Shown here in pieces: positions 3,369-62,452 of a stretch of 64,000 bases of DNA (positions within the stretch are counted from its first letter, which is position 1; each line of letters begins with the position of its first letter). This DNA is from Oryzias latipes (lineage: Eukaryota > Chordata > Actinopteri > Beloniformes > Adrianichthyidae), in contig NC_019876.2 of NCBI RefSeq assembly GCF_002234675.1, forward strand, positions 13,576,829-13,640,828, read 5' to 3'. The notes below the pieces were generated by a model. That model made no database searches. It was not told the origin of the DNA and worked only from the letters and a program-made list of their open reading frames with translations. A program made the position numbers and the translations under genes.

Positions 3369-3581
3369 TTAACCCTTGTGCTATCCTTGGCACTTTAACG
3401 TTGGGAGTTGGGTCATCTAGACCCACTAGACAGTGCTCTGAACCTTTTTTCTTCAATGATTTGTGATCTTCATTGGTGTCCATGGATTACATGAAATCTT
3501 TCCACCTTCAACCACCTTTGTCATGGTAGGGAGAACACGTCAATGTAAGGGTGGGGTCATCTAAGATAGCAAAAGGGTTAG
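3369..3581 (-). mobile_element. TTAA-type MITE (piggyBac-like), copy 1
   Basis: Short non-coding element with inverted termini CCCTTGTGCTATC / GATAGCAAAAGGG, flanked by TTAA at the left (3,369-3,372) and TTAG at the right (3,578-3,581). Its internal block CATGGATTACATGAAATCTT is shared with copies at 9,046-10,644, 17,273-18,295 and 37,136-37,347. It is inverted relative to those copies. The related locus near 38,290 is an empty site, which fixes the boundaries. Assignment to the piggyBac superfamily rests only on the TTAA target and CCC termini. Confidence 0.75.
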
Positions 3582-8960: not shown

Positions 8961-9213
8961 CCTTCACTTGTTGCAGTTTTTAGTATGATCATTCTGAATA
9001 ACGATGTTTAAAGTCAGGTTTAGGTGCAATATAATAGAAAATTAATTAACCCTTGTCCTATCTTAGATGACCCCACCCTTACATTGACGTGTTCTCCTTA
9101 CCATGACAAAGGTGGATAAAGGTGGAAAGATTTCATGTAATCCATGGACACCAGTGAAGATCACAAATCATTGAAGAGAAAAGGTTCAGCGCACTGTCTT
9201 GTGGGGTCTAGAT

Positions 9214-10590
9214 CAGCGGTCCCCAACCTTTATTGCGCCACGGACCGGTTTGATTTCTGGCAAAATTCTCACGGACCGGTATGTTGTATGTGTCGGACAC
9301 ACGCTCCAGCAACGCTGCAATAAAGGCAGAGACACTTGTTAAGACGTACTCTGCACTTTTATTTTGACACGCTAAACATTGTACATCGCACAGGTGTCAT
9401 CATCCTATCCCCGTCCCACACACATGGTGCTAAAAATAAGTAAACACAACAGGAAGAAATAACTAAAGGTAAAACAATATAACTGCCAGATGAAAGGACC
9501 CATAGGCAAAAAGAAACACCCGTGCTCAACCCTATTTTAACCAAAGCAGGCAAAGGGGATTGATCTAATGCCCTGTGATGCTAGCTCCGACAGTAACCCC
9601 TGCAGCCTGCAGAACTCTGACAGCAGACCAAACGTGCACGTGACCCACACTACAGTACAACAAAAAAATTTGATATGGCCTGCATGAAAACTGTGGTATT
9701 TTCTAAACATAACAATAAACACAAATTATGACATGAGCAACATCCTCTCTGCCCGCAACACTCCCTGGTCGCTATTATTATAACATTTAAAATAGTTATT
9801 TGTGACGTAATACTTAAGTAATTCATCTTTGTCATGTGCTTTATCAATATCTTATGATTTTTAAATTATGTCTGATAAAAACTGGGAACCGGATATTGAT
9901 AAATCATGTAATAAAATGGTTATAGTATAACGGGGTGGGATTATATAAGTTCACTTCCTTCCACTCCCTTTGAAGCAATATTTATTAGTATGTCTAATTA
10001 TACTAAGTTTGATTAGTTACTGTATGAATGTATAACTGATGATTATATTGCTGTTGTGTATTATTTCTACTTAATTGCTTGAAATAAACCATTTTAAATC
10101 AAAAAAAAAAAAAACATTCCTTCAAAATAAGTGCATGGAAAATCCAACCCACCACAATGCTGAATGGTTCAAGGGAATCTCCCGTTGGGATAAATCCGTA
10201 TTTTAAAAGTAGGACTCCTGATACTGGCTCTTAAACGTAGCTTTCTTTTTTTGGAAGTCGAAGGCTCCTCTTCTGTCTCCTGGCTGGGCCTTTTCCCCTT
10301 GGCAAAGAAACTTTCCAAAGATGTTTGTTTTTTTATTCATTTTGCTAGTTCCTGGGCTTTCTTTTAGCGGTATCCTATCACGTGACCGAGACGAGCGAAT
10401 TGGCCTCCGTCAAGAGTAACATAAACTGATGTAACAGAGAATCGGGCAATTTTTCAAAATAAAACATCTTTCAGATTCTGAAATAAATAAAACGGAAGTA
10501 ATGTAAGTTGTTTTATTTTTTCTGTGCGGCCCGGTACCAAATGACCCACGGACCGCTACCTGTCCGCAGCCCGGGGGTTGGGGACCACTT
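9214..10590. mobile_element. hAT-like nonautonomous element inside MITE copy 2
   Basis: It has terminal inverted repeats CGGTCCCCAACC / GGTTGGGGACC next to CAG... and ...CTT ends, with a perfect 8-bp target duplication GTCTAGAT at 9,206-9,213 and 10,591-10,598. Length about 1.38 kb, with no transposase. The interior carries a LINE tail (about 9,880-10,114). The 8-bp duplication and CAG-type terminus fit hAT (Charlie-like) elements. Confidence 0.8.
9880..10114 (+). mobile_element. LINE 3' tail with poly(A), nested in the hAT-like element
   Basis: Contains CGGGGTGGGATTATATAAG, a cysteine-poor non-coding tail, a GAAATAAACC signal and a terminal run of 14 A at 10,101-10,114, the usual look of fish LINE 3' ends. 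The 5' boundary and target duplication could not be fixed. Confidence 0.5.
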
Positions 10591-10644
10591 GTCTAGATGA
10601 CCCAACTCCTAATGTTAAAATGCTAAGGATAGCACAAGGGTTAT

Positions 10645-11308
10645 GTGCAGCAGAGATATTTTTTTTGCTAGTAATTTTTGTCGATGGTTTTGAATTTCCA
10701 TTTTTCCCTCTGTTTCTGTGATTGAACCATTTTTGCTTGTTTTAAAAAAGGAATAACTAGAAAAAGTTTATACTCAAATCCTTTACGTTCAGTTCCTGTG
10801 AAGTTAATATTGTTAACATTTATTTACGTCTTGTTGCCGTGGGATAATTCTGATAGCACGGTTACATGATGGACCTTGACTATGAAGGTCTGTAGACAGT
10901 TTTTTATTTAATGTTGGAGTAAAACTAGAAAAGTAAAGTGGGCACAAAAACTGTCAGATCATACAAGAAGACATAGACTTGTTCCTTCAATTTTATTGAT
11001 AAATCACAGCTTAAGTCGAATAAAACATGGTAGCTTGAACAGAACACACAGCATGGCTTTGTTTATTAAAACAGAAGATTTTCAGAAATGAAAAATTAAT
11101 GTAGTTTTTCTCTCAAATCCAGGTTAAAAAAACAAAAGTATTGCTTTGGAATTGGAAGAGAAGCCTAGTTCAAACTGAATCCAACTTTATTTATAAATAA
11201 ATGCTTGCCATGCTTATTTATTTAGCGCTTTACAATTAAAAATAAATACTTTTCTGTCCAGTCCAACAACAACAAAAAACGGTTACAAATATAATTAGCA
11301 TAAATAAA
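10645..11308. other. AT-rich sequence, only a short fish repeat fragment
   Basis: No gene. A CAACTTTATTTATAAATAAA...TTAGCGCTTTACAATT fragment at ~11,180-11,245 is a common short teleost repeat type; the rest is unrecognised. Confidence 0.4.
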
Positions 11309-11495
11309 GTTTAGTTTACATTACAAATGGGGTTTATTCAACTATACACTTTGTGTATGAGAAGATTCATAACCCCAGGTTGTAACAGTAAGATATGTCT
11401 AACACAAGAGGCCTTCAACTCTCATCTGATTGCTCAGCTGTTGGACAGGACAAGTTGAAGAAAATAAATAAACTTGAAATTATTAAAAAAAATAA
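11309..11495 (+). repeat. 5'-truncated LINE tail, second copy
   Basis: Matches the last part of the LINE at 4,929-6,272: GGGGTTTATTCA, ATAACCCC, TATGTCTAACACAAGAGGCC and GGACAGGACAAGTT, ending in an A-rich run. Non-coding. Confidence 0.6.
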
Positions 11496-11595
11496 ATTAA
11501 AACCCACCCAAACCTATTCCCTACCCCCATCCATTAACACATACACCCCATGAACCTCATATTGTCAATGACAAGTACAAACACAAGTAAAAGGT

Positions 11596-11945
11596 GGGCG
11601 GCAGTGGCCCATGCGGGTGAGCAGGTCGGCCAATGATCAAAGGGTCGGTGGCTCGATCCCTGCTCCCCCCAGTCAACTGTTGTTGTGTCCTTGTCAAGAC
11701 ACCAAACCATTCCTGCCTCCACCGTTGCTCCACGGGTGTGTGAATGTGTATGAATGATCTCGGTGATGGTCAGAGGGGTCGAAGGCGCAATCTGGCAGCC
11801 ACGCCTCTGTCAGTCTGCCTCAGGGCAGCTGTGGCTACATCAGTAATTCACCAAACATGAATGAGGAGTGAATGATTGATGGACACATTGTAAGCGCCTT
11901 GAGTGTCTAGAAAATCCAATCCATTCTTATTATAAAACAGCATTA
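11596..11945 (+). repeat. tRNA-derived SINE, near full length
   Basis: The head resembles a tRNA: GGTGGGCGGCAGTGGCCCATG region with B-box-like GGCTCGATCCC at 11,650-11,660. The body has GTCCTTGTCAAGACACC, GGGTGTGTGAATGTGTATG and a tail GTAAGCGCCTTGAGTGTCTAG. It is a dispersed SINE, not a functional tRNA gene: it cannot be folded into a full cloverleaf with a CCA-proximal acceptor pair that I can see. Confidence 0.6.
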
Positions 11946-12224
11946 TTGGATTGAAATTGTGATTGCAACCCAGAAAAAAGCTGCTATACTACTAACTTTT
12001 CAATTCTACATTGTTTCTTTTATCATAGAAAGAAAGAGCAGGGGCTTTTGCCTTTTCTTGTTAGTGAATTATGATGCCTGAAAATTAACATTTAGAAATT
12101 TTAAAGTGTCAATATTCAAATCTTATGCTGTCTGTTGTGTGAAATTATGTGGTTTGTTCATTTTCTGAGGCAGTTTCAACATTGAAGTGAATGAGCACAG
12201 GAGAACTCCTAAATGTCTGCGTAC

Positions 12225-12872
12225 ATTTTGTGCATTTTTTTTACATGTATGTAATTTCGGTCTTTCGTGATACATGCATGACATCCGTAATTCAAGAGTG
12301 TTGCTTGCATTCGTCAATGTGTGCAGATGTCCATCAAGCGTTTCAGCCCACAAGTCTTTATGTGAATTCGGTTTTGAGTTGCTCAAAATTTTTGGTTGGT
12401 TGAGAATTACACAGTTAATGCGTATTTTACATAGTTAATACATAATTATTACAGAAATCTTATGCAATTGTGTGTGATTATTGCAAGATGCAAATTTGTG
12501 GCTTTCCACGGCCGTTCCACGTGTGTCTAACAGACTTTTTACGCATGTACCACTGGTTTATAACTTTTACATCACGCATACGGCACACATATCACCTTCA
12601 AATTAAGTAATTGATGCACGAATCACTAATGAATTGCATGTAAACAGCGCAATAATCACGCACCGTTCATGTTCTACTTTGCTTTACATGCTCTTTGCGT
12701 GGTTTATTTGTTCTTCTTCCGTGGTTTTAGGGTGGTTCATTCATAATACATTTGTGAAAATTTCATGTAAAGACCGCAACTTTTCTCACTTTTTCCCACG
12801 CATGTTCAAGTATGACCAATTTTCATCAGTGCAATATGCGCAAAATGTAGCAGTGGCTGTGTGCCATGGGCT
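12225..12872 (-). mobile_element. Nonautonomous DNA element family C, copy 2
   Basis: It matches family C elsewhere (CACGGCCGTTCCACGTG, CATGTACCACTGG, GAATTGCATGTAAACAG) and ends with GTGGCTGTGTGCCATGG. It lies about 10 bases downstream of the stop codon of the sulfotransferase gene, so the gene's 3'UTR probably runs inside this element. Confidence 0.6.
12703..12708 (-). terminator. Candidate poly(A) signal for chst12-like gene A
   Basis: AATAAA on the minus strand (TTTATT on plus) about 175 bases after the stop codon, inside the family C element. Other candidates are possible. Confidence 0.35.
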
Positions 12873-12882
12873 TGACATCAGC

Positions 12883-15800
12883 TCAGTCATCCAGCAGTTC
12901 AGTTGGCCTTCTGTAGCCAAATAGTTGAAAGTCTTTTTCATAGATTTTGTACAGCTTCCTCCTGTCTTCTATTGGTACCCCTTGAAACCATTCCATAACA
13001 GAATTACCAGAAGTCATGTTTTCATATGATGGAGGAAACTTAATGGCGTCTTCTAGCTTTAACATCTTCAGCAGCTGCCGAGCATCTTCTTGAAGACTCT
13101 CTTGATGGCCAACAAAGTCATATCTGAGAAGAAAGAAAGAAAGAAAAAATGCTGTTTTATTGCAAATTGTTATTTCATGAGTTTGATACAAAAGTGAATG
13201 CCATAGTTGTTACTTTTGATAAATATGTCCTTACTCAACAAGGCAGGGGTGGCACAGGCGATGCATCTGCCTCCAGTGAGGCTCAAACGGTGCATATTTC
13301 TCTGTTCGCGGGTCAACTATGTACTGAACAAAGTTATGGAACGAAGGTTTGAGATACGTTCTTTTTGTCCCATTATATTTAACAGGTACATTCTTCTGGT
13401 TTTTATAGCGTTGCAAAATGACTCTAACGTAGCCTTCATAAAAGTACTGATCATAATTCAGCATCTTGTCCCTGTAAGCGGAGATGAGGCGCACAAATGG
13501 ATCACGGACAAACAGAAACTTGGTGTAGTGCTTTAGTTTTGCCTGTAAAAGAAATAAATACAAATCACACCTCTATTTGAAACTTTCAGGGCATTCCTAT
13601 TGTTGCTGCACAAACTGACCTTTCTTTCTGGCATTGAATAGTGCTTCAGGAGTCGGAATCTATCAAATTTGTGGACCATGTTACTTTTAAAGGACATGGG
13701 GTCAGGATATGGTTCATTCTGTTTTAAAGCAATCAAAGTCCTTTTCCAGTTGGTACATGCCACCTGCAAAAAATATGTTTATGCTAAAGTGTTAATGCTA
13801 GTGTTTCAAATACTGACACGAAGAGATGTTTTCCATTTTCATTGTTTCAATTTGATAGTTTCGCATGCCAATTACTGAAAACCATGTTTAGCATGTTTTT
13901 ACCTTCCACACAGTTTAAATATACTTAAAAAATGATGGCAAAAGCTATGTTTTCCTCAGAAACTGTTCAAAAACACAGGTTTTGAAAATTAGCCTGTTTA
14001 TCTTAGAATTCCGAACTTGTTAGCATGTCACTAGCATGTTCATTAGCATTTTTTCTAGCTTTAGTGTTACAGTTCTGCCTTCAGATGCAAACACTTTTGC
14101 AATATAAATAATTTAACATATAATTTTGGACCTTTTATTCTGAAAATGTCATGACATTATAAGGAGGACCAAGTTGGGAGACGTTAGCAAACACAGAGTT
14201 AAGAAATTATGTTTAGTTTAGTTTTGTGCGCTGTTACCGTAACATTTGATATTTTTTTCTTATGCTCCGTCTTCTTTAAGTGTGAGGGTCTGTTTGCAGC
14301 CGTACTACAGTCAATTGGTTTGGAGGTTTAGCGGCAGCTTTTGACTACCGAAACTTTTTAACTGTTCACGCAATTAACGTAACGCTAACAAGTTCTGAAG
14401 CAGAGAAAAGCAGCTTTTCGCCGATACACACCACTTTACAGTAGTGAATGCTTACACAATCATGGCAAACCAATTGGTTCTATAGCGGAGACAAGTGGCT
14501 TTACGCTTCGTGCAAAGCCAAAATGGAAAGCCGCTTTTCCCAGAGTCAGAATTAGTTGATAAGTGTTTTCATTGCAGTTTTTTCAAAATAGGTCAATTTT
14601 AATACAGCTTCGAAAACCACCTCCTCCAAGTTTTTTTCGAGAAATTGACATGCTTCCATTAAGCCAATTTATTATTGCAAATCCAATTTGCGCAATTTCA
14701 TAGTCAATGGAAGCGCCTCTATTGATAAACAATCGTAGAGTCACAGTATATATATCTATCAAAAATCAACATGCTGCCGAGGTTGACTCCACCAAGCAGC
14801 AAAAGGTGGTGCCTCAGAGATCGAGTTATCTTAGGTAGGGAAATGAGCTGCAAAAATGACTTCCACAACAAGACTTCCTTAAAAAAATTTGTTCTTTAGT
14901 GTGCCAAAGGTCATATATGATCATACAAATGAACGTGTTTACACTGAAAGACTTGAGAAAATCACAATGTAGACTTTCGTCTCAGTGACAAGCTTACCCA
15001 TAATTTAAACGGATATTCGATTATCAATTGACAATTCAGTTTGCCATTTTACATCCTTATTTGAATTTTATACTTGCAGCTTGAAATTCCATTTATTTGA
15101 AATGGATAATTTACTATTTACACACACACACATTATACTGTATATATATAAAATGTATTAACTTTATTTTAAAGCAACTCAAAAATTTTAATTTGCAATG
15201 GTGTTTTGGCATCAAAATCCAAAAGAAACCAAAAATTAGTGCCCCCTCTGGTTTAAGACACTTTCATTATTTGGCCATCAGGTTTTTATGCCCCAAAATT
15301 AATGTCCATCATTAATAAACATTTACTTTTGCGATTTGGATATTTTCTGTACAACTCAAACCTCCAAACTTCTATCCTGCATAAATGACATACATTTTAG
15401 CCCGGTTGTTTTAAAAAAAAAAAAAAAAGGAACAGGTAAGTAAGAACTGATGATGTGTCACCTTAGGAATGTAACAGTAAATGATGCCGTGTTGGTCGTC
15501 CACAATCAAGTTATTCAAGTCAATATTATTCAAGTTAAACAAACTTTGGTTGACGCCAGCACAGTGTTTCCTCAGAAGATCCTTTCTTAGTCTTTGTTGT
15601 TCTAAATATTTCGGTGCTGTAAACACAAAAACTAAACTTATTAACTTTGCAAAATCATTCATTCCCTTGTACTAAATTTAGTTTTAGCTCTGAAGTCAAA
15701 TGATGAGGAATATCTGACATGCAAACAGAAGCAAAATAGTCAAGTTAAAGAAAAAAAAACTACAGAGCAATTAAAGCTTTCACTGGCTGGGCTTAATTTC

Positions 15801-15956
15801 ATACATTAAATTACACAATACAACAAAATTACACACAAAAGAAAGATTCATACTTATATTTTGCAGATAAAAATCCCATCCATAAATTGTCAAAGTGAGA
15901 AAAACCATGGGTCCCAACAGCACAAAGACAATCATCAATTCTTTGTTTAACCCCAT
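12883..15956 (-). CDS. Carbohydrate sulfotransferase 12-like (gene A, intact)
   Basis: Predicted 316-aa type II Golgi membrane enzyme of the Sulfotransfer_2 (HNK-1ST/CHST8-14) family, which transfers sulfate from PAPS to sugars; closest by eye to CHST12, a chondroitin 4-O-sulfotransferase. Coding exons: 15,854-15,956, 15,462-15,616, 13,620-13,763, 13,235-13,542, 12,883-13,123; phases agree and total 951 nt. A membrane anchor lies at residues ~8-26. The 5'-phosphosulfate site is PKVACTNWKR (~85-94) and the 3'-phosphate site is FVRDPFVRLISAYRDK (~145-160). The C-terminal WF...LYKIYEKDFQLFGY is typical of CHST12. The stem is short (CHST12 is about 400 aa). A 5'UTR exon may end at 16,112 (donor GTAAGTAAT), with acceptor just upstream of the start. 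The exact CHST subtype and substrate are inference. Confidence 0.9.
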
Positions 15957-16111
15957 ATTGTTTGCAATACACTTCTGATGATCAAAAAAAGAAGAAAAAA
16001 AACCACAATTAGAAGTAAAAGCAAAACAAGTCAAAGTTAAATTTCCCCTAAAAAATTTACATTTTTTCCATGTGCCATTGCGTTACTTTTAAAAACTGAA
16101 ATATTACTTAC

Positions 16112-16250
16112 CTAGTTGAGAATCTATGGAGAAATTTAAAAAAAAGACAAAAAAGTACACGTCTGTTTGTCAAAACAAAAGAAAAAAATCTTCGTCTGAC
16201 ATAAGAGGCAAAAATGCCACGAAAGGCAATCACTTGTCTTCATTTAACTC
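16112..16250 (-). other. Possible 5'UTR exon / promoter region of gene A
   Basis: A good donor (AG followed by GTAAGTAAT, minus strand) ends a putative exon at 16,112. The matching acceptor TGATCATCAG sits ~20 bases before the start codon. The paralogue has a similarly placed donor near 26,582. The exon start was not determined. Confidence 0.4.
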
Positions 16251-16689
16251 TCCTCAGCAGAGAGACACTGAGGAAAGCAGCATAGGGAGGGAATTATTTT
16301 GAGCTGACATACAGGAAGTAGAAGCATGTCAGGTAATTTTATGTAGCTGTAGGTGTGACTCCTTAAATCCAGTTTTGCTGAATTATTCTTGATTATAAAT
16401 TGTTGAGCCATTTCAGCTTCACTGGTGAAGAATTTCAATCTAAAAGGTGACATTTATGGACTATTTTCATGAATGATGACAAACCCGCCATCCTATTGCT
16501 CAAAGCATACAATGTTACCTCGTTTCAACTGAGCTGCATGGTCTTGTCCAGTCCAGTGTAAAATTGGCCCGTTAAGGTGGACTGAACCATACAATTTTCC
16601 GGCCCAGATTGGTTGGAAAATGGGACATACTTGTATACCACCTTGGTACTTTCCTCTAGGGACAAAAGTGCTTAAAAGTCACAGTCCCG
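16251..16689. other. Non-coding sequence upstream of gene A
   Basis: No ORF with gene character, and no clear TATA box or repeat termini. Confidence 0.4.
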
Positions 16690-16862
16690 GTCCCACGTCT
16701 GCTGCCAAACACTGGCGCCAACCTACTGTATAACCACCAGAGGCATTGTGAGGTTCAGCGTTTTGCCCAAAGACACTTAAACACATGGGCGGTCAAGGCC
16801 GTAATCGAACCTGCAATCTTCCGATCATAGGTCGACCACCTTACCGCTAACCCAAATTGACC
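16690..16862 (-). repeat. tRNA-derived SINE head and body
   Basis: On the minus strand it has an A-box-like TAGCGGTAAGGTGG (16,836-16,849), a B-box GGTTCGATTAC (16,801-16,811), then CCCATGTG and a GGGCAAAACGCTGAACC body that matches the truncated copies elsewhere. This copy shows that the family is tRNA-derived. Confidence 0.65.
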
Positions 16863-17272
16863 ATTCAAAACCGAGCAGTTATCGGACTGCTCAGTAGAAA
16901 CAAGGCTTAGGTGGCACCAACCAACTCGGCCAGAGTTTATAATACTGTGAAAAGTAAACATTTTGGATCATGACCTATCTGGAATAAAGAGAGGGATTCA
17001 GTTGTGCACATGTTATGTAGATGCCAGGAAAAACTAGTGTCGTAATCAGTAGCGATAACGTTAACCAATGCAACAATATTTCAAAAAGACTACAAAAATA
17101 ATTTTTAAAAATTGGAAAATGTTGTGCAATATACTATGAAAAAAAGTAATTTCAATATCATTACTTTTAGGTTATTTGTTTGAGAAACTGTGTTGCCTTT
17201 CCAAAAGCTCTAAAAAAATACTAAGTCAGGGCTACCGTCAAAAGTTAGAACTTAGCATCACATGTTTTAAGT
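16863..17272. other. Non-coding, nothing recognised
   Basis: AT-rich; no gene or repeat boundary was identified. Confidence 0.4.
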
Positions 17273-18295
17273 TTAACCCTTGTGCTATCTTAGATGACCC
17301 CACCCTTACATTGATGTGTCATTCATACCATGATAAAGGTGGATAAAGGTGGAAAGATTTCATGTAATCCATGGACACCAGTGAAGATCACAAATCATTG
17401 AAGAAAAAAGGTCCAGAGCACTGTCTAGTGGGTCTCTAGATCAGTGTTTTTCAACCAGTGTGCCGCGGCACACTAGTGTGCCGTGGGAGATGGCCAAGTG
17501 TGCCGTGGGAAATTGCCCTCATTAACTGATCTAAAAACATTTCCCATCTCCAGGATTTTAGCTCTCTGTTCATCCAAACAGGCCCTGATAAAACACTGAG
17601 GAGTTAGGAATATAAAAGATCGTAAAATACCTTTTCTTTGCGTTTATTTTATTTTATTAAAGACATTTTGATAAGAATGACGTACCGCGATTCAGCTGCA
17701 CCTTCGGCTGTATTTTGGAAAAGTCCCGTGTTGGGGGGGTTAATCACATGTCATCGGTCTGACCAATCAGAAGTGCTTAAAGTCTTCACTTCCTTGTCCC
17801 GATTTAGCTCGTAAAGTCGCTCAGTTCCAACAGAAATACCAGCTAAAGCTCGTCTTTAGCCGTGGAACAAGTGAACAAAACAATGAAGCTCCGAAAACCG
17901 ACCTTCGGCCGTTTTATGCACTACATTTCCCATGATGCATTGGGTTGTGAGAGTGACAGCGCAAAAGGAGATCTGTTGTTAAACGTCTTGAAATTAACGA
18001 ACACACAAACTGTTTTTAAATCTTCTAACTTAACTTTTATTGCATCTTTTAGAAAAAAACAGCTGCAGTTTCCAGCTTTTTCTGTAACAATTATCTCAAA
18101 AATGTACGTGAGATTGTGCAGGGGCTGTAGATCAATACAGACTATGAGTTTCTCCTTTTTTTTTAATTTTTGGATGCTGGTGTGCCGCGGGATTTTTTTT
18201 AAGGTTAAAGTGTGCCGTGGCTCAGAAAAGGTTGAAAAACACTGGTCTAGATGACCCAACTCCCAATGTTAAAGTGCTTGGGATAGAACAAGGGT
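17273..18295 (+). mobile_element. TTAA-type MITE, copy 3 (interrupted)
   Basis: Starts TTAACCCTTGTGCTATC and ends GATAGAACAAGGGT. It is split at the same internal octamer as copy 2 by a different hAT-like element. Confidence 0.8.
17442..18244. mobile_element. hAT-like nonautonomous element inside MITE copy 3
   Basis: The termini CAGTGTTTTTCAACC and GGTTGAAAAACACTG are perfect inverted repeats. Flanks are CTCTAGAT (17,434-17,441) and GTCTAGAT (18,245-18,252), an 8-bp duplication with one change. The 803-bp interior carries repeated GTGTGCCG(C/T)GG blocks at both ends and no transposase. The terminus is the classical hAT-Charlie type and differs from the element in copy 2. Confidence 0.8.
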
Positions 18296-22870: not shown

Positions 22871-23368
22871 ACAAGATAGGTAGCCTTATTCCTTAATCAC
22901 AATTGCCCTTACAGGTGGAAACCGGCTATCTGTGGCCAAAAGAATAGGTAAAACTGTACGGGATACACAGGTGGCTGATGTTTGGCGAGTCCATATAGGC
23001 AAAATGTTTTTCTTTGGGCATGCAGCCTGCATCAGGCTGTACTGAACACTTGGACAATACGCAAGGGTAAGTAAAGGTGGATTCACTTTTGCAGTTTGTT
23101 AAACATTTTAATCATTCTTGTTGCATTTTTAATCATTTCGGTTGGAGAATGATTTAAAAAACTTTTTAATTAGCAAAAGCAGTTAGATCTATTCAAATTT
23201 ATTTTTGTTGTCAAAACTATTTTTTGAAAAGTTTAGTATTAAATTTTAACATCTACTATTTGGCACATAGTGCTTTTTTAGCCTATATATCAGTAGCCGA
23301 ATGTTATGCTATAGTTAGCGGTAGTTCAACATTAAGGTCGTGAAACACAGTAAGGTTTTGACATAAGA
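22871..23368. other. Non-coding, downstream of the broken sulfotransferase gene
   Basis: AT-rich. A candidate AATAAA (minus strand) for gene B is at 23,198-23,203. Nothing else recognised. Confidence 0.4.
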
Positions 23369-26300
23369 TCAGTCATCCAGCAGTTCAGTTGGCCTTCTGT
23401 AGCCAAAAAGTTGAAAATCTTTTTCATAGATTTTGTACAGCGTCCTCCTGTCTTCCAAAGGTACACCTTGAAACCAGTCCATAACAGAATCAACAGAAGT
23501 CATGTTTTTATTTGATGGAGGAAACGTAATGGCGTTTTCTAGCTTTAACATCTTCAGCAGCTCCTGAGCATCTTCTTGAAGACTCTCTTGATTGCCAACA
23601 AGGTCATATCTGAGAAGAAAGAAAATAAATCGCATTTATTCTCAGTTTTGATACAAAGTTGTACGTTCTAGCTGTTAATTTAGGTAAAAATGTCCTTACT
23701 CAATGAGGCAGGAGTGGCACAGACGATTCATCTGCCTCCAGTGGGGCTCAAATGGTTCATAGGTCCCTGTTTGTGGATCCACTATGTACTGAATGAAGTT
23801 ATAGAATGAAGGATGGAAACCCTCTTTCATTGCCTCTTTATAGCTCAGAGGTAAATTAGTCTGGTTTTTGTACTGCTGCAAAATTGGTCTCACATAACCG
23901 TCATAAAAGTACTAATCATATTTCTGCATCTTGTCCCTGTAGGCAGAGATGAGGCGCACAAATGGATCACGGACAAACAGAAACTTGGTGTAGTGCTTTA
24001 GTTTTGCCTGCAGAGACAAATAAACACACATCCATCCTTTGATCATTTTCATGACATTCCTAGTGTTGCTGCACAAACTGACCTCTCTCTCTGCCTTTGG
24101 AAGTTGTCTTAGAAACTGGAATCTTTCCCATTGGTGAACCCAGTCCCCTTTAAAGGATATGGGATTAGGATATGGCTCACCATGCTTTAAAGCAAGCAAA
24201 GTCCTTTTCCAGTTGTACATGCCACCTGCAGAAAACATAAAAGGCTTGAAGCTAAAAAAAACATCTTCCAGTTAATATTTTACTCTCTTTCAAGCTAAGA
24301 AACAGTTAATATTTGTATTGATGCAATATTACTATTTCTTCAATAACTGTACCATGGTAGGCTGGCAGTTACTATGGGTATGAGTTAGATACTTGTTTTT
24401 GCACTTTTGTTTATTAATTCTTATTAACCTTTTTTTTATGGACATAGACTTTTTTTATGATATCCTTTCAGTCAACCTTTTCTTGTACTTACTGTGTTCA
24501 TTTGGATCAAAAATGTAGCATAGAATTTAAATTCTTTTGTCGTTTAGAAGTGGATACAGTTTAGATAACAGTTTTTACATTTTTTTCCAGCTATTATTTA
24601 ACTTTTATTATTGGATTTAACAATTTTTTGTGCCATTTTTAGCAAAACTTCATACAATAGGCTCAATACTGATTATATGATTCTCATTGCATGCGACCCA
24701 CTGGGTTCCTGAAAAATCAAACAGTTTTGCACATTTTATACTTTATGAGTAAGAGAGTAAGTCCAGATGATGTCTCACCTTGGGAACAAAACAGTAGATG
24801 ATGCCATGTTTGTCGTCCACAATAAAGTTATTTATGTCAATCTTATTCAAGTTGACCAAACTTTGGTTCACATCAGTACAGTGTTTCCTCAGAAGATCGT
24901 TTCTTAGCTTTTGTTCTTTTATAGATACTTGTGCTGCAAACACAAACAAAAAAAATGTCTTTGATTTAAACTCTACAAAATCTATAAAAAATATGTGATA
25001 ACTTTAGCTGCTGACGTTTCATTTTGACGTGAAACTATTTGTAAAATATGTGACTTGCAAATAGAAACTAGAAGGAAGTGCATTCCCAGAATGAAACTTA
25101 AAGGGTAATAATTGGCAGGGGAAAAAAAGAAAAGGAAACAAAAAATGATCAAAGGTGACCATAAATAAAGTGAAAACAGCACAATAATAAAAAAGATATG
25201 TATGGTATGTGAAAAATGCAAGCGAACCAGGTATAGAGTATTGGACATACAATCGGTATAACCTTGGAAAATTTTGAAAAGTTCAAGGAATTGAAGGACC
25301 AAACATCATAACTGGAAAAAGCTAAAACAGCTGCTCATTTTAATAGTTGAATGGTTAAAATAGGTGAAAAATTGTAGGAGTTAAGCGGCAAAAAATGGTG
25401 GAAAATGCTATAATAAATAAAGAGAAACAGGAAAACAATGGGTTGAATGCTTATTAGAATTGAACCAATGAATCATACGGATGCTCTGATAATTACATAA
25501 CACTGCAAAGCCTTAGGGCCGTCTCACACAGCCACATACATTTGACACATATTACACGGTTATTCATTTCTGCATTGGGGAATCAAAATTTCATCGTATT
25601 CTATTCTGTATAGCATATATGTTGTATAGCATTCTTGTTTCATCGTTGACTGAAGTGAGAAAAGTTTTATAGATATATATTTTGTACAGATATATCACAA
25701 ATGAACCACGTTAAAACCACGAAAGAAATGCAAGTAAAACCACGCAAAGAACCCGTGAATCAAGGTCGAACATGAACCAAGTCTGATTATGGTGTTGTTC
25801 ACATGCAATTCATTAGTGATTCGCGCATCAATTACGTAATTCTAACGTGATACGTGCGCTGTATACATAATATAAGAGTTAAACATTGGTGGTACATGCG
25901 TGAAAGGTCTGTAAGTCAGACGTGGACATACGTGGAACGGTCATGAATAAACCACATTTCTGTATGCATCTCGCAAAAAAATCGTGCAGAAGATTTAAGT
26001 CATAATTGCGTATAAACTACGTAAAATACACATAAACTGCGAAATTCTCAACCAACATAAAACAGCTCAAAACCCTCGATGGACATCGGCACACATGACA
26101 AATAACAAATGCAAAAAACATTTATAAACTACATATATCAGGAATGAATCACCAAAGACCAAAATTTCATACATGGAAAAGGCGCAAAATGTACTTGGTG
26201 GCCGTGTGACACAACCTTAAATAGAACAGCTCAACTTTAAATAAAAAATAAATGTTTTTTTACTTTACTTCTAATTCTGTGAACACAAGCTTTGCAGACA

Positions 26301-28246: not shown

Positions 28247-29695
28247 TTACACCCTGCAGTTATGTCTATCTATTGCTCTGGTGCTCAGGGCTTGTTCCTG
28301 GGCTGCCAGGATGAGCGCTTCGGTGCTGTCCTGTAGGCCAGCCCTTTCTAGCCATTGGTAGGACTTCTTGATATCAGCCACTTCAGTTATGGTCCGGTGG
28401 TACATCCCATGCAGGGGTTTGTCCTCCCATGAGGATCTGTCCTCCAGCACTGTATCCTCTGCTCTCCATTGCCTGAGACATTCACTGAGCACACTGTCAG
28501 TTGGGGCCTTGAGCTTGATGTACTCATGGATCTTGGATGTTTCATCCTGGATAGTGGCTTCTACGCTCACTAGTCCTCGGCCTCCTTCTTTGCGGCTAGC
28601 ATACAGTCTCAGGGTGCTGGATTTGGGGTGGAACCCTCCATGCATGGTGAGGAGCTTTCGTGTTTTAACATCCGTGGTCTGTATTTCTTCCTTTGGCCAT
28701 CTTATTATTCCTGCAGGGTATCTGATAACTGGCAGTGCGTAGCTGTTAATTGCGCGGGTCTTATTTTTGCCATTGAGCTGGCTTCTCAGGACTTGCCTTA
28801 CTCGTTGGAGGTATTTAGCTGTTGCAGCTTTCCTTGTTGCCTGCTCCAGGTTGCCATTTGCCTGTGGAATTCCAAGGTACTTGTAACTGTCCTCGATGTC
28901 TGCTATTGTTCCTTCTGGGAGTGAGACCCCCCCTGTGTGGACTACCTTGCCTCTCTTTGTCACCATCCGGCTGCATTTCTCGAGCCCGAATGACATCCCA
29001 ATGTCAGTACTGTAGATCCTGGTGGTGTGGATCAGGGAGTCAATGTCACGCTCGCTCTTAGCATATAGCTTGATGTCATCCATGTAGAGGAGGTGACTGA
29101 TGTTGGCCCCATTTCTGAGTCGGTATCCATAGCCAGTCTTGTTGATTATTTGACTGAGGGGGTTGAGACCTATGCAGAACAGCAGTGGGGACAGAGCATC
29201 ACCTTGGTATATCCCACATTTGATGGACACTTGTGCAAGTGGCTTCCCATTGGCTTCAAGAGTGGTTTTCCACGGCTTCATTGAGTTTCCTATGAAGGCT
29301 CTTAGAGTCCTGTTGATGTTGTACAGCTCCAAGCATTCAGTGATCCATGTGTGTGGCATCGAGTCATAGGCCTTCTTGTAATCAATCCAGGCTGTGCACA
29401 GGTTGGTGTGTCGTGACTTGCAGTCTTGAGCGACTGTTCTGTCGACCAGGAGTTGGTGTTTGGCTCCTCTGGAGTCTCTACCAATGCCCTTCTGTGTGTT
29501 GCTCATGAACTGATCCATGTGCCTATTTATCTTGGTTGCAATGATGCCTGACATGAGCTTCCATGTTGTGGACAGACAGGTTATTGGCCGGTAGTTGGAT
29601 GGGACTGCACCCTTTGAGGGATCCTTCTGGATCAGGATCGTTCGCCATTCCGTTAGCCATTCGGGGTGAGTACCATCTCTTAGCAGCTGGTTCAT
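28247..29695 (-). pseudogene. LINE reverse transcriptase domain
   Basis: A 482-residue open stretch with palm motifs IDYKKAYDS (residues ~104-112), GIYQGDALSPLL (~161-172) and the catalytic YMDD box (~204-207), followed by a thumb region. It ends at HNCRV, where sequence equivalent to the cysteine-rich knuckle is missing and the frame changes. It belongs to the element at 27,680-31,020 and is separated from its neighbours by frame breaks. Confidence 0.85.
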
Positions 29696-29868
29696 TTGTG
29701 CTGCCAGGCGCTCGTGGAGTGCGGTAAGCTTCTTTAGCCAGTAGCCATGTCAGGGCCCGGTGCTGTCCAGTTCTTCATACCTGAGACTCTTTCTTGGATG
29801 TCTGCCACTGTGATGGTTTCTGGATTCTGTTCAGGGAGGTTGCTATGTTCTTTTCTTAGAGAGACCAG

Positions 29869-30894: not shown

Positions 30895-31033
30895 GTTGTG
30901 AGGTAGGCATTAACGTTAAGGGTCTTGCCCAAGGACCCTCACTGGGTGATGTAATTGCCCGTCTTTGTTATGGTGATTGCCCCATTTCCATTGTTATGGT
31001 AATTGCCCGTATGTATTCCATATGTATTGCACG

Positions 31034-31109
<76 letters not shown>

Positions 31110-31211
31110 CATATATATATATATATATACATACATATATATATATATGCATATATATACATATACATATATATATACATATATACATTACATATATATA
31201 CATATATACAT

Positions 31212-31264
<53 letters not shown>

Positions 31265-31265
31265 G

Positions 31266-31356
<91 letters not shown>

Positions 31357-31385
31357 GTATAGAGAGAGAGAGAGAGAGAGAGAGA
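31034..31385. repeat. Compound TA/TATAC and GA microsatellite
   Basis: About 325 bases of TA repeats with interspersed TACATA units, then (AG)n at 31,361-31,385. ORFs reading Tyr-Ile repeats here are artefacts. Confidence 0.95.
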
Positions 31386-37135: not shown

Positions 37136-37347
37136 TTAACCCTTGTGCTACCGTAGATGACCCCACCCTTACATTGACGTGTTCTCCCTACCATGACAAA
37201 GGTGGATAAAGGTGGAAAGATTTCATGTAATCCATGGACACCAGTGAAGATCACAAATCATTGAAGAAAAAAAGGTTCAGAGCACTGTGTAGTGGGTCTA
37301 GATGACCCAGCTCCCAATGTAAAAGTGCCTATGATAGCACAAGGGTT
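37136..37347 (+). mobile_element. TTAA-type MITE, copy 4 (uninterrupted)
   Basis: TTAACCCTTGTGCTACC ... GATAGCACAAGGGTTA, 212 bp. It is the intact reference for copies 2 and 3; the internal site reads GTCTAGAT at 37,297-37,304. Confidence 0.8.
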
Positions 37348-42900: not shown

Positions 42901-45900
42901 GTAAATCCTTTTATGTTTGCACGGATGGGTTCTTTGTGTTCCCAAAATGATTATTTTCATGACTAAATGTTTTAATGTTCAAGTAAATTATGGAGAAAAA
43001 GTCTCGTTAGTTCAAGTGGAACAGCACAAATCTGGATTTTGATGGGCTTTCAGGCTTGGAGGGGCATCAGAACTCACAGTGGGGGTTGTTGCCGTCGTTC
43101 CTCATCCTTCATTGGTGGAGTTGATTGATTCTGGGAAGGCGGTGCGTCATGGTTGGTTTTTAAAAGCGGCTCTTTGGCCTTTGGAGACGCAGCGCGAGGC
43201 GAGTGAATTCTATTGGCCGACAGGATGGGAGAAACTCCGTTGACGTTTGCTACTTGAGCTGGTGGGGGGGTCCCGTTCCGAATAGCTTCTGAAAACCAGC
43301 AGAGGGAAGATTTAGACCAAAAAGCAGAAGGTGACACGATAATGTCCACAGTGAAGATGGAAGACTCACCTGGATTACAGGTGAGTTTGGACAGGGCCTC
43401 TAAGGCTTTGTGGACCGTCCCGTGAATAATTAAAGCGTTCGAGCTCTGCTCCCGAGTAAAACCATATTGCTGCAAGGAAACATTCACACAATTCCTTAAC
43501 AATGCGTCTCCATCACGTCCTGGAAGATCTAAAGCTTAAAGGTTAAATCTCTACTTTTCTGTTCTGGTTTTGACCATTGACTGTAAATGAGAACTGGACC
43601 GTGTGTTAAAATGCCTCAAATGAAGTGGACATTTACTTTTATTCAACATTTGCAGAATACATTTAAAAAAATATTATGTTTATAACAATTCAATACAAGA
43701 GTATAACTTACGTTCTAAATAAGAGTCATCGTCATTTTAAACTTTAAAATTCTTCAAATCAGCAAAAACAGAGCCGGTGATGAATTTGTGGGCGTTTTTC
43801 CATCACTTGTAAGTGAATTCACAGGACTAAAATAAATAAAGTGGACAATTTTTTGGCAAGACCGACGCCGCTGTTGGAGCCATAGACTAACCAATCAGAT
43901 GCCAGTGGAACGTTCCAAAAGTCTGACAGATTGGGATTTAAGTGGTAGGGGTGTGGATTTCCAACAAGCTCACTCCTGATTAGTGAGAGTGGTTGCCATA
44001 GGAACGTTGACTAAGACTAAGATTCGGGCCAATTACGGCTTACTGATGTCATCTGGTTCCAACATGATGACATCCATGACGGCTGAATTCCCTGTATTTT
44101 GTTGAAACAGGAAGTCATTTTCTGTGGGTGAAATCCAGTTCTCGTATACAGTCAATGGTTTTGAAACACAGCTCAGCTCATGCTTGGATGGCATTTATTA
44201 TGTTTGAAGGTCTTGTTTGTATTTAAGCAAAGCCTTAAACGACACTAGACGGGCATCAACCTCTGCAGGAAAACCTTCTATGACCGAGCAGAAAAGGCAC
44301 AGCTTCATAACCTGCTACTGCCTAAAAGCCCCAAATCCAACGCACCATTAGTTGTATCATCTGCATCCGCAAAAGCTCCTGGGCAGCTTCAGCATACGAG
44401 CTTTCCAGTTTGAGAACCTCCTTGAAGGCCTGAGCAGCTTCTTCATACCTCTGCAAGGAGAGAGAATGAGAGAAATGCATAACAAGTCATTACCTTTTGA
44501 CTTTCCATCTTGTTATTAATTAACTTGCTAAACCAGAAGGCCAAAGTAATCAAAGTCAGAGCAACCGGAACTGTAGCTAGGACTTTTAACTGATCACGCA
44601 CTTTCATGCATCTGCAGCTGCTGATAAGCAGCAGGGAGGGCATAAACCAACAGAAATTTGGCCTCTGAAGCTACAGAAGTAACCAGACGCACAACATGAA
44701 ACACACTCAGCTCTAGGTTTGGGTCTTCTCACCTTAAGTCCTGCCAAAGCTCGGCCTTTCCTATACAGGCCTTTAACCCAGTCCGGGCTGATGTCAAGGG
44801 AGATCTCGGCGTCGGTCAGAGCTTTGTCGTATTCTAGCAGCTTCTCATAACAGAACGACCGATTGCCGAAGAGCCTGTGAGCCAAACACAGCGGCGGCGT
44901 TACCCAAACAGCCAGCACTCCTCCTCTGTGCGTTTAAGAGAGCCTCTTACTTGAACTCTTTAGGGTTGAACTTGATTGCATGTGTAAAATACTTCACCGC
45001 CATATTATAGTCTCCGCCATTGGCAAACTTATTTCCTAAAACTGCAAAGAGAAGATTGTACAAATTCCAGATTTGATCGTTTGCATGTGAAGAGAGGAGG
45101 CTTGATTTAAGGGTGACTTACTTGCAAACTCGGTGCTTATTTTAACGTTGTCCTCCAAGCTGGAGCTACAGTCCTGAACAGACAAAACAAAGGTGTCAAA
45201 CAGACCAAAAACAATTACAAATCCAGGAAAATGTGCAACAAGGGGAAAGGTATTTATATGTGGAACCTTGAGCTCCTCAGCTGCAGCGTTTTTAGGCCTT
45301 TCTTTGTCGGGATTCTTCTTCTTCTCGGCTCTTGGATTCTGCTCCAATTGGCGTTTCGCTATCAGAGCGGCTTTGCTCACAAAGCTACTCGTCATATCCA
45401 GTTCCTCAAAACAGTTACATATCAGTACAAATTGAAAAGTAAGATCGACAACTATTTCAAGGTAATCTAAAATATAACAAATCCGTAAAGTGCTACAAGA
45501 ATCCTGCATTTAGATTTCTGTCATTTATTAATATTTTGTGCAAAATACTCCAAGGATACCTCTGAGTCGACTTTAGAGTCGCCATCTTCATCACTAGATT
45601 CATGTTCGGTGTTGTCGCTGTCACTATCTGTATCTCTAGCTGCAGCCTGTTTATCGCGGGAGGTGGCCTCTTCCTTTGATTCTTCTTGAACGCATTTGTC
45701 CTCCTCCGACTTTGAGCGTCCCCCTTCGTCTTTATTCTGAACGACACAAAAATCCTCGTCATTATCAAACCCTTCCAGTGAGTTTGCAGATCAATCATTG
45801 ACTGTATATGAGAACTGGACGTTCCAAACACGCCAAACGAACAAAATGTTTGACAGATTCTCTCGCTTTCAAGTGGTAGGGGCGTGGCTTTCGAACAAGC

Positions 45901-60838: not shown

Positions 60839-62452
60839 CAGCGGGGAAAATAAGTATTGAACACGTCAACATTTCACAAAAAACACATTTCTAATCGAGC
60901 TATTGACACGAAATTTTCACCAGATGTCGGCATCAACCCAAGTAATGTACACATAGAAAGAAATCCAAACATTTATGTCCATAAATGAAGTTATGTGTAA
61001 TAAAGTGAAATGGCACAGGGAATAAGTATTGAACACATGAAGAAAAGGAGGAGTAAAAAGGTCTGGCAAGCCAAGAAAGCAGCTGGAGTTTGTCAGTATT
61101 CAGAAGGTTAACCTGCCCCCTATTAGTACAAAGTAATATCAGCTGGTATAGTTCTGACTGATGCCTTTTAAAAAGGTTTCTCACCAGCAAGGTGTTAGAC
61201 AAGAAGCATTGCATGATGGGTAAAAGCAAAGAGCTGTCCAAAGACCTACGCAACCTTATTGTTGCGAAACACACTGAAGGCTTTGGTTACAGGCGCATTT
61301 CTAAACTTCTGAAAGTTCCAGTGAGTACCATTGGGGCCATCATCCGGAAGTGGAAAGAACACGGCATTACCATAAACCTGCCACGGCCAGGTGCTACTCG
61401 CAAGATTTCAGACAGAAGAGTCAGAAAAATCATCAGAAGGGTTCTCCAACAGCCCAGGACCACTTGTGGAGAGCTTCAGAAAGACCTGGAATCAGCAGGT
61501 ACCGTTGTTTCAAAGAAAACAATAAGTAATGCACTCAACCGCCATGGCCTCCATGCACGCACACCACGCAAGACTCCATTTTTGTAGAAGAGGCATGTTG
61601 AAGCTCGTTTGGAGTTTGCGACACAACATTTGGATAAACCCATGACATTCTGGGAGAAGATACTCTGGTCAGATGAGACCAAAATTGAACTCTTCGGATG
61701 TCATAAGACACAACATGTTTGGAGGAAAAGTGGCACCGCACATCACCCCCAAAACACCATACCAACAGTCAAGTTTGGAGGGGGGAGCATCATGGCGTGG
61801 GGCTGTTTTTTCAGCATGTGGTACTGGTAGACTTCATATCATTGAAGGAATAATGACTGGAGAAAAGTATCAAGACATTCTTGATCAGAATCTGCTGTCA
61901 TCTGCCAGGCTGCTGAAGATGAAAAGAGGGTGGATCTTTCAGCAAAACAACGATCCCAAGCACACAGCCAAGGTAGCGCTCAACTGGTTGAACAAAAAGA
62001 AAATAAAGCTGCTAGAATGGCCCAGTCAATCACCAGACTTGAATCCAGTTGAATATCTTTGGAAAGAACTGAAGATCCGGGTTCACAGAAGAGAACCCCG
62101 GAACCTTGAAGATTTGCAGGCAGTTTGAGTGGATGAATGGGCCAAAATCACACCTGAGCAATGTATTCGACTGGTTTCTCCATACAGGAGGCATCTTGAG
62201 GCTGTAATCACCAACAAAGGTTTTTGCACTAAGTATTAAATAAATTTCAGTAAGAGTGTTCAATACTTATTCCCTGTGCCATTTCACTTTATTACACATA
62301 ACTTCCTTTATGTACATAAATGTTTTGGATTTTTATGTGTGCATTACTTGGGTTGATGCCGACATCTGGCGAAAATTTCATGTCAATAGCTCGATTAGAA
62401 ATATGTTTTTTGAGAGAAATGTTGACGTGTTCAATACTTATTTTCCCTGCTG
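60839..62452 (+). mobile_element. Tc1-like transposon with IR/DR ends
   Basis: Ends CAGCGGGGAAAATAAG / CTTATTTTCCCTGCTG with TA target duplications at 60,837-60,838 and 62,453-62,454. The inverted repeats extend ~215 bases. Each holds two direct repeats AATAAGTATTGAACAC (60,849-60,864 and 61,021-61,036; inverted at 62,256-62,271 and 62,427-62,442), the Sleeping Beauty-type IR/DR layout. Length 1,614 bp; contains a degraded transposase. Confidence 0.9.
61192..62245 (+). pseudogene. Tc1-like DD34E transposase (inactivated)
   Basis: The likely start is MGKSKELSKDLRNLIV (~61,216). A paired helix-turn-helix region follows (YRRISKLLKVPVSTIGAIIR, then PRPGATRKISDRRVRKIIRR), then the catalytic core: [12 protein letters not shown] (first Asp), FQQNNDPKHTAK and QSPDLNPVEYLWKELK (Glu). 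Breaks: TAG at 61,585-61,587, one extra T in the run 61,806-61,811 (frame shift), TGA at 62,126-62,128. In addition the second catalytic Asp of the family motif QDNDPKH is Asn (codon AAC, 61,946-61,948). The original C-terminus would be near 62,240 (CTKY). Confidence 0.9.

Follow-up and report, generated by a model that had tools for sequence, protein, structure and literature searches.

The window analysed here, a 64,000-nucleotide stretch of Oryzias latipes contig NC_019876.2 (positions 13,576,829 to 13,640,828), contains four copies of a miniature inverted-repeat transposable element (MITE) of about 212 bp. Two of the copies are interrupted by different hAT-like elements, which we call e2 (in copy 2) and e3 (in copy 3), at the same octamer, GTCTAGAT. 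Coordinates and lengths given for these insertions in an earlier sequence-only reading of the window are correct (Table 1). That reading also pointed to an uninterrupted copy at 37,136 carrying the site once; this is copy 4, and copy 1 proves to be a second intact copy that likewise carries GTCTAGAT once. Including their inserts, copies 2 and 3 span 9046-10643 and 17272-18295. Subtracting the insert and one duplication from either of them restores, in the alignment, the empty site seen in copies 1 and 4, and a single TCTAGA is found within the MITE sequence.

Table 1. MITE copies and inserted hAT-like elements, in window positions
Feature	Position	Strand	Remarks
MITE copy 1	3370..3580	-	Uninterrupted; TCTAGA at 3416
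MITE copy 2, left part	9046..9213	+	Ends in the left 8-bp duplication
Left duplication of e2	9206..9213	+	GTCTAGAT
e2, hAT-like element, 1,377 bp	9214..10590	+	Termini CAGCGGTCCCCAACC ... GGTTGGGGACCACTT
MITE copy 2, right part	10591..10643	+	Begins with the right duplication GTCTAGAT (10591-10598)
MITE copy 3, left part	17272..17441	+	Ends in CTCTAGAT (17434-17441), with extra TC
e3, hAT-like element, 803 bp	17442..18244	+	Termini 15/15 inverted (CAGTGTTTTTCAACC)
MITE copy 3, right part	18245..18295	+	Begins with the right duplication GTCTAGAT (18245-18252)
MITE copy 4	37136..37347	+	Uninterrupted; reference copy
Empty target site in MITE copy 4	37296..37303	+	GTCTAGAT

The duplication around e2 is exact, with GTCTAGAT on both sides. 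e3 lies between CTCTAGAT and GTCTAGAT, as had been described; relative to copies 1 and 4, an additional TC is seen on the left side of copy 3 (GGGTCTCTAGAT), and a single 2-bp slip in what was an exact GTCTAGAT duplication would account for it. Copy 2 has an extra G to the left of the site, which is also present in another MITE copy (L042:9036-9897) and probably belongs to the variation among MITE copies. The L042 copy, from one of the arbitrarily placed stretches of the genome, is itself interrupted: at about position 126 it carries some 650 bp that include a long GATA array, an insert that looks like a long interspersed nuclear element rather than a hAT element.

hAT elements have short terminal inverted repeats that begin with CAG. 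The termini of e3 begin in this way and match at all 15 bases. Those of e2 match at 13 of 15: the first bases are CAGCGGTCCCCAACC and the opposite end, read inward, is AAGTGGTCCCCAACC, revealing that the CAG is altered to AAG on one side. The 8-bp target-site duplication, another hAT trait, is exact for e2 and present for e3 after the 2-bp slip. Both elements are devoid of long reading frames (the longest stop-to-stop frame has 132 amino acids) and appear to be non-autonomous. As a chance control, ten simulated sequences with the dinucleotide make-up of the window were scanned for CA-started end pairs flanked by an 8-bp duplication with at most one mismatch; the end match never exceeded 12 of 15 bases, against 15 for e3 and 13 for e2. 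Elsewhere in the window, a match of 13/15 was reached at one place (43575-44157), aside from five hits in an AT microsatellite. This place is a candidate small element with ends CATTGACTGTAAATGAGAACTGGA / CATTGACTGTATACGAGAACTGGA and flanks GTTTTGAC/GTTTTGAA. A long AT-rich microsatellite array at 30959-31361 yields false element ends in the end-pair scan. We also considered a retroposed insert inside e2, at the A-run at 10101, and rejected it, the short matches having given no convincing duplication.

Sequence comparison of e2 and e3 revealed only the end letters in common (best E 0.13, not significant). Together with the finding of both orientations and of 24 different lengths among 24 measured (see below), this led us to reject the possibility that e2 and e3 are deletion derivatives of one insertion that was copied with the MITE.

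Can the shared position be a coincidence, in which two unrelated elements met the same place by chance? Judged from the window alone, it could be. TCTAGA occurs there 13 times, inside the range of 7-20 found in ten simulated windows. Before the insertions there were 11 such sites, 4 of them in MITEs, and filling 2 of 4 MITE sites versus 0 of 7 others does not differ significantly (p 0.11, calculated by hand). The genome argues otherwise. Pattern counts across the whole assembly (734,051,031 bases, 25 contigs) returned 531 occurrences of the MITE flank followed by the duplication and CAG, and 0 for the reversed controls. The exact empty site, AGTGGGTCTAGATGAC, is found 16,646 times, which corresponds to an occupancy of 3.1%. 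When two lists of contig-1 hits were compared, 28 of the 31 filled sites reappeared with a full CAGnGnTnnnCAACC end, and further hAT-like ends (CAGGGGTCGGCAACC, CAGGGCTCGGCAACC and CAGTGGTCCCCAACC) were found at the MITE site.

We then asked where within the MITE these junctions fall, using an 8-base anchor followed by a gap of 0-17 bases and thus covering 18 positions at and near the site. Here, e3-type ends matched 303 times (control 0). Among the 100 matches listed, 90 are at GTCTAGAT, 8 at GTCTAGTG, which lies nine bases upstream of GTCTAGAT in the MITE, and 2 elsewhere; positions were assigned by letters for about one third of the listed rows and by match length for the remainder. e2-type ends gave 15 matches, with 9 at GTCTAGAT, 5 at GTCTAGTG and 1 at another position, the latter being, by its letters, a MITE with a small deletion in which the junction is still at TCTAGAT. 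Both families therefore rank the two MITE sites in the same order. The proposal that the MITE supplies a preferred hAT target is borne out by these counts, and the octamer is enriched over other positions within the 18-position stretch. Given 531 filled sites, and with one of the 18 positions taking 90 of the 100 e3-type junctions listed, we consider coincidence to have almost no chance of being correct.

To define the target rule of the e3 family, we collected its ends genome-wide. The pattern used found 4,185, and the true number is higher because the pattern does not allow A as its first base and fixes two of the inner ones. Among the 100 ends listed, all on contig 1, the flanking octamers read nTCTAGAn: positions 2-7 of the duplication are T66 C53 T95 A97 G51 A65, with a central TA in 94, YTAR in 59 and the full TCTAGA in 26. 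Paired ends among the matches listed carry matching 8-mers, as judged by eye. The octamer GTCTAGTG is one base poorer than GTCTAGAT, and its second rank is as predicted from the consensus. This rule changes the weight of the original observation. The sequence-only reading had treated two families at one base pair as independent evidence, which does not hold: e3-family ends prefer nTCTAGAn generally, and the MITE has one TCTAGA, so that a shared preference would bring both families to the same base pair. The meeting of e2 and e3 at one site is therefore expected once the target preference is known.

Mammalian MER1/Charlie elements, a group of hAT elements, insert at sites with the consensus NTCTAGAN, and their end motifs include CAGnGGTCCCCAACC. 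The e3-family consensus appears to agree with NTCTAGAN; unlike the mammalian elements, the e2 and e3 copies sit in a fish genome. Buster-group hAT elements (TcBuster, Mar) generate 8-bp duplications with the consensus nnnTAnnn (PMC3517528, PMC3499496). The e3 family resembles them in the central TA of its duplications (94 of the 100 listed ends), but its target is the longer nTCTAGAn, and it is known here from its ends. Hermes prefers nTnnnnAn (PMC10368747) and hobo generates an 8-bp duplication (PMC3276498); e2 and e3 share the 8-bp duplication with both. In contrast, the hobo motif GTNCGNAC, as quoted from its report, is without the central TA seen in the e3 family (PMC3276498). Outside the hAT superfamily, plant long terminal repeat retrotransposons nest preferentially in particular regions and at particular motifs of other elements (PMC6911290), much as e2 and e3 sit at a preferred motif of another element. 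These retrotransposons belong to a different class and are described as having a weak palindrome preference, whereas a single octamer takes 90 of the 100 listed junctions in the stretch scanned here.

As a whole, the data are best explained by a shared hAT target preference combined with amplification of the MITE, a reading that we hold with considerable confidence. The MITE bears one perfect match, GTCTAGAT, to nTCTAGAn, which would be the target of hAT transposases whose elements end CAGnGnTnnnCAACC. By spreading to more than 16,000 copies, the MITE would have scattered this target through the genome. Independently of one another, several non-autonomous hAT families, presumably mobilised in trans, would then have inserted at the MITE site, each time generating an 8-bp duplication. 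A single preference of related transposases may thus lie behind both families; for e2, it is visible in the ranking of two sites rather than in a full consensus. Several points weigh against this explanation. The transposase and its action in trans are postulated. The position scan covers 18 of about 212 MITE positions, and the reversed control of the e2-type scan gave 1 match, to be set against the 15 on which the e2 position test is based. Because both ends of many elements are listed, the 100 e3 ends represent fewer than 100 independent insertions. In addition, e3 is in excess at the TCTAGA of the MITE, which is not predicted by the hexamer alone.

This excess emerged from a list of 100 of the 1,771 TCTAGA junctions counted, drawn from contig 1 and the beginning of contig 2. 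Of the listed junctions, 72 lie in sequence that matches the MITE with no more than two mismatches (67/86 for e3, 5/14 for other types), and 28 are outside the MITE. After both ends were merged, 66 insertions remained: 42 of e3 in MITEs and 12 outside, and 3 of other hAT types in MITEs and 9 outside. The site background, drawn from 200 kb (twenty arbitrarily placed 10-kb stretches), comprises 38 TCTAGA sites, of which 8 are in MITEs (by eye) and 30 outside. Corrected for the first-base rule, and with the window either included or left out, e3 shows an 8-10-fold per-site excess in the MITE TCTAGA (p ~6e-8), which arithmetically approaches 15-fold when MITE numbers are scaled to genome-wide counts. 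The other hAT types, at 0.8-0.9-fold (p 1), show no excess. Longer target context, MITE structure, local conditions, survival or some co-amplification may underlie the e3 excess.

One possible addition to the target-preference explanation, which we put forward tentatively, is that the longer sequence context, structure or chromatin of the MITE actively draws e3 about ten-fold over ordinary TCTAGA sites. The distribution of e3 insertions (42 versus 12, against sites at 8 versus 30) is in line with this, as is the fold of the MITE strand, which is better than that of shuffled sequences (z -3.2, 1/200). hAT target motifs can also reach past the duplication, for example in hobo (PMC3276498). However, other hAT types show no such bias (3 versus 9), the background is limited to 200 kb, and by eye TCTAGA is not the centre of a more extended palindrome in GGGTCTAGATGACCC. 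The same picture would result from composite copies, or from e3 surviving better in MITEs. The notion of the MITE as a landing platform stands in a passive sense only: the excess over the hexamer is found for e3 but not for the other hAT types, and the scan covered 18 of about 212 positions. We give less than even weight to the possibility that one transposon family, the MITE, has through such a draw become a specific landing platform, dispersed and presumably harmless, for another, e3.

Composite copying would account for the excess differently: e3 would have inserted into a MITE on one or a few occasions, the MITE and e3 would then have multiplied jointly, and most filled sites would have arisen by copying instead of by new insertion. 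This fits the finding that e3 is in excess in MITEs and other hAT types are not, as well as the end subtype TTTTTT, which stands at 7/7 in MITEs versus 24/39 elsewhere (by eye, p 0.08). A single source of MITE plus e3 would, however, be expected to produce one orientation and nearly one length. Instead, both orientations are found among 13 strict MITE ends (4 + 2 at the left junction, 5 + 2 at the right), and the lengths all differ (24/24 measured, 444-1756 bp, in pairs chosen by eye, leaving out three e3 pairs with unclear flank and the other hAT types). Copies of e3 located outside MITEs fall in the same range of lengths (858-1576 bp, 5 measured) and are also found at TCTAGA. Furthermore, e3 has inserted at the second MITE site, GTCTAGTG, and the e3 copy in the window has a different end subtype, TTTTCT. 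A single amplified composite is thus unlikely; the bias in end subtype leaves room for a few composites or for a difference in age. Overall, we regard composite copying as improbable, and shared target preference with MITE amplification as the better account.

The MITE itself is short (212 bp), has inverted terminal repeats that pair with each other on folding, has no coding capacity and is present in high copy number, with 1,429 candidates in a first look at the genome. Positions ~77-125 are almost invariant across the four window copies and the ends vary more; this may reflect chance or constraint. The sequence-only reading had taken the MITE for TTAA-type, and a piggyBac-like MITE would have TTAA duplicated at either end. 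TA is found on both sides of the MITE at the expected place in 18 of 30 high-scoring genome copies and 3 of 4 window copies (the latter by eye), and TTAA flanks both ends in 9 of 30 and 0 of 4, respectively. Among the 30 genome copies surveyed (L001-L030), in 5 of which the simple script missed one end, a one-sided TTAC or GTAA opposite TTAA is common. As far as these flanks can tell, the MITE's own duplication would fit better with TA and a liking for a TTAA context. Relatives of the MITE were sought by exact 33-base matching in viral contigs and prokaryote genomes and by blastn in phages and plasmids, in each case without a hit; Rfam gave no match in the window. Among the literature titles and abstracts surveyed, none names this MITE or a TCTAGA hotspot.

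Further features were noted elsewhere in the window. Two related stretches, 12886-15981 (-) and 23358-24953, contain a sulfotransferase gene, with a Sulfotransfer_2 match in the exon at 13237-13572 (E 2.1e-23), and are connected by the repeat families D4, D5, D9 and D15. A retroelement reverse transcriptase frame lies at 28247-29749 (-) (RVT_1, E 3.9e-28). At 61646-62128 (+) there is a DDE_3 transposase fragment (E 3.3e-11), which we take to be Tc1-like from its look; inverted repeats lie nearby (59750-59926/60659-60835 and 59565-59715/63002-63152).

The target preference described here is of a kind already known; its scale, with hundreds of landings at one spot, is what stands out. The MITE provides a natural target-choice experiment, in which more than 16,000 near-identical sites, hundreds of them filled, are present in one genome, making it possible to measure hAT target preference against a constant sequence background. 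The MITE further illustrates how one element, by spreading, can determine the landing places of others. An excess of e3 beyond the hexamer, if real, would suggest that a vertebrate hAT recognises either an extended target or some structure.

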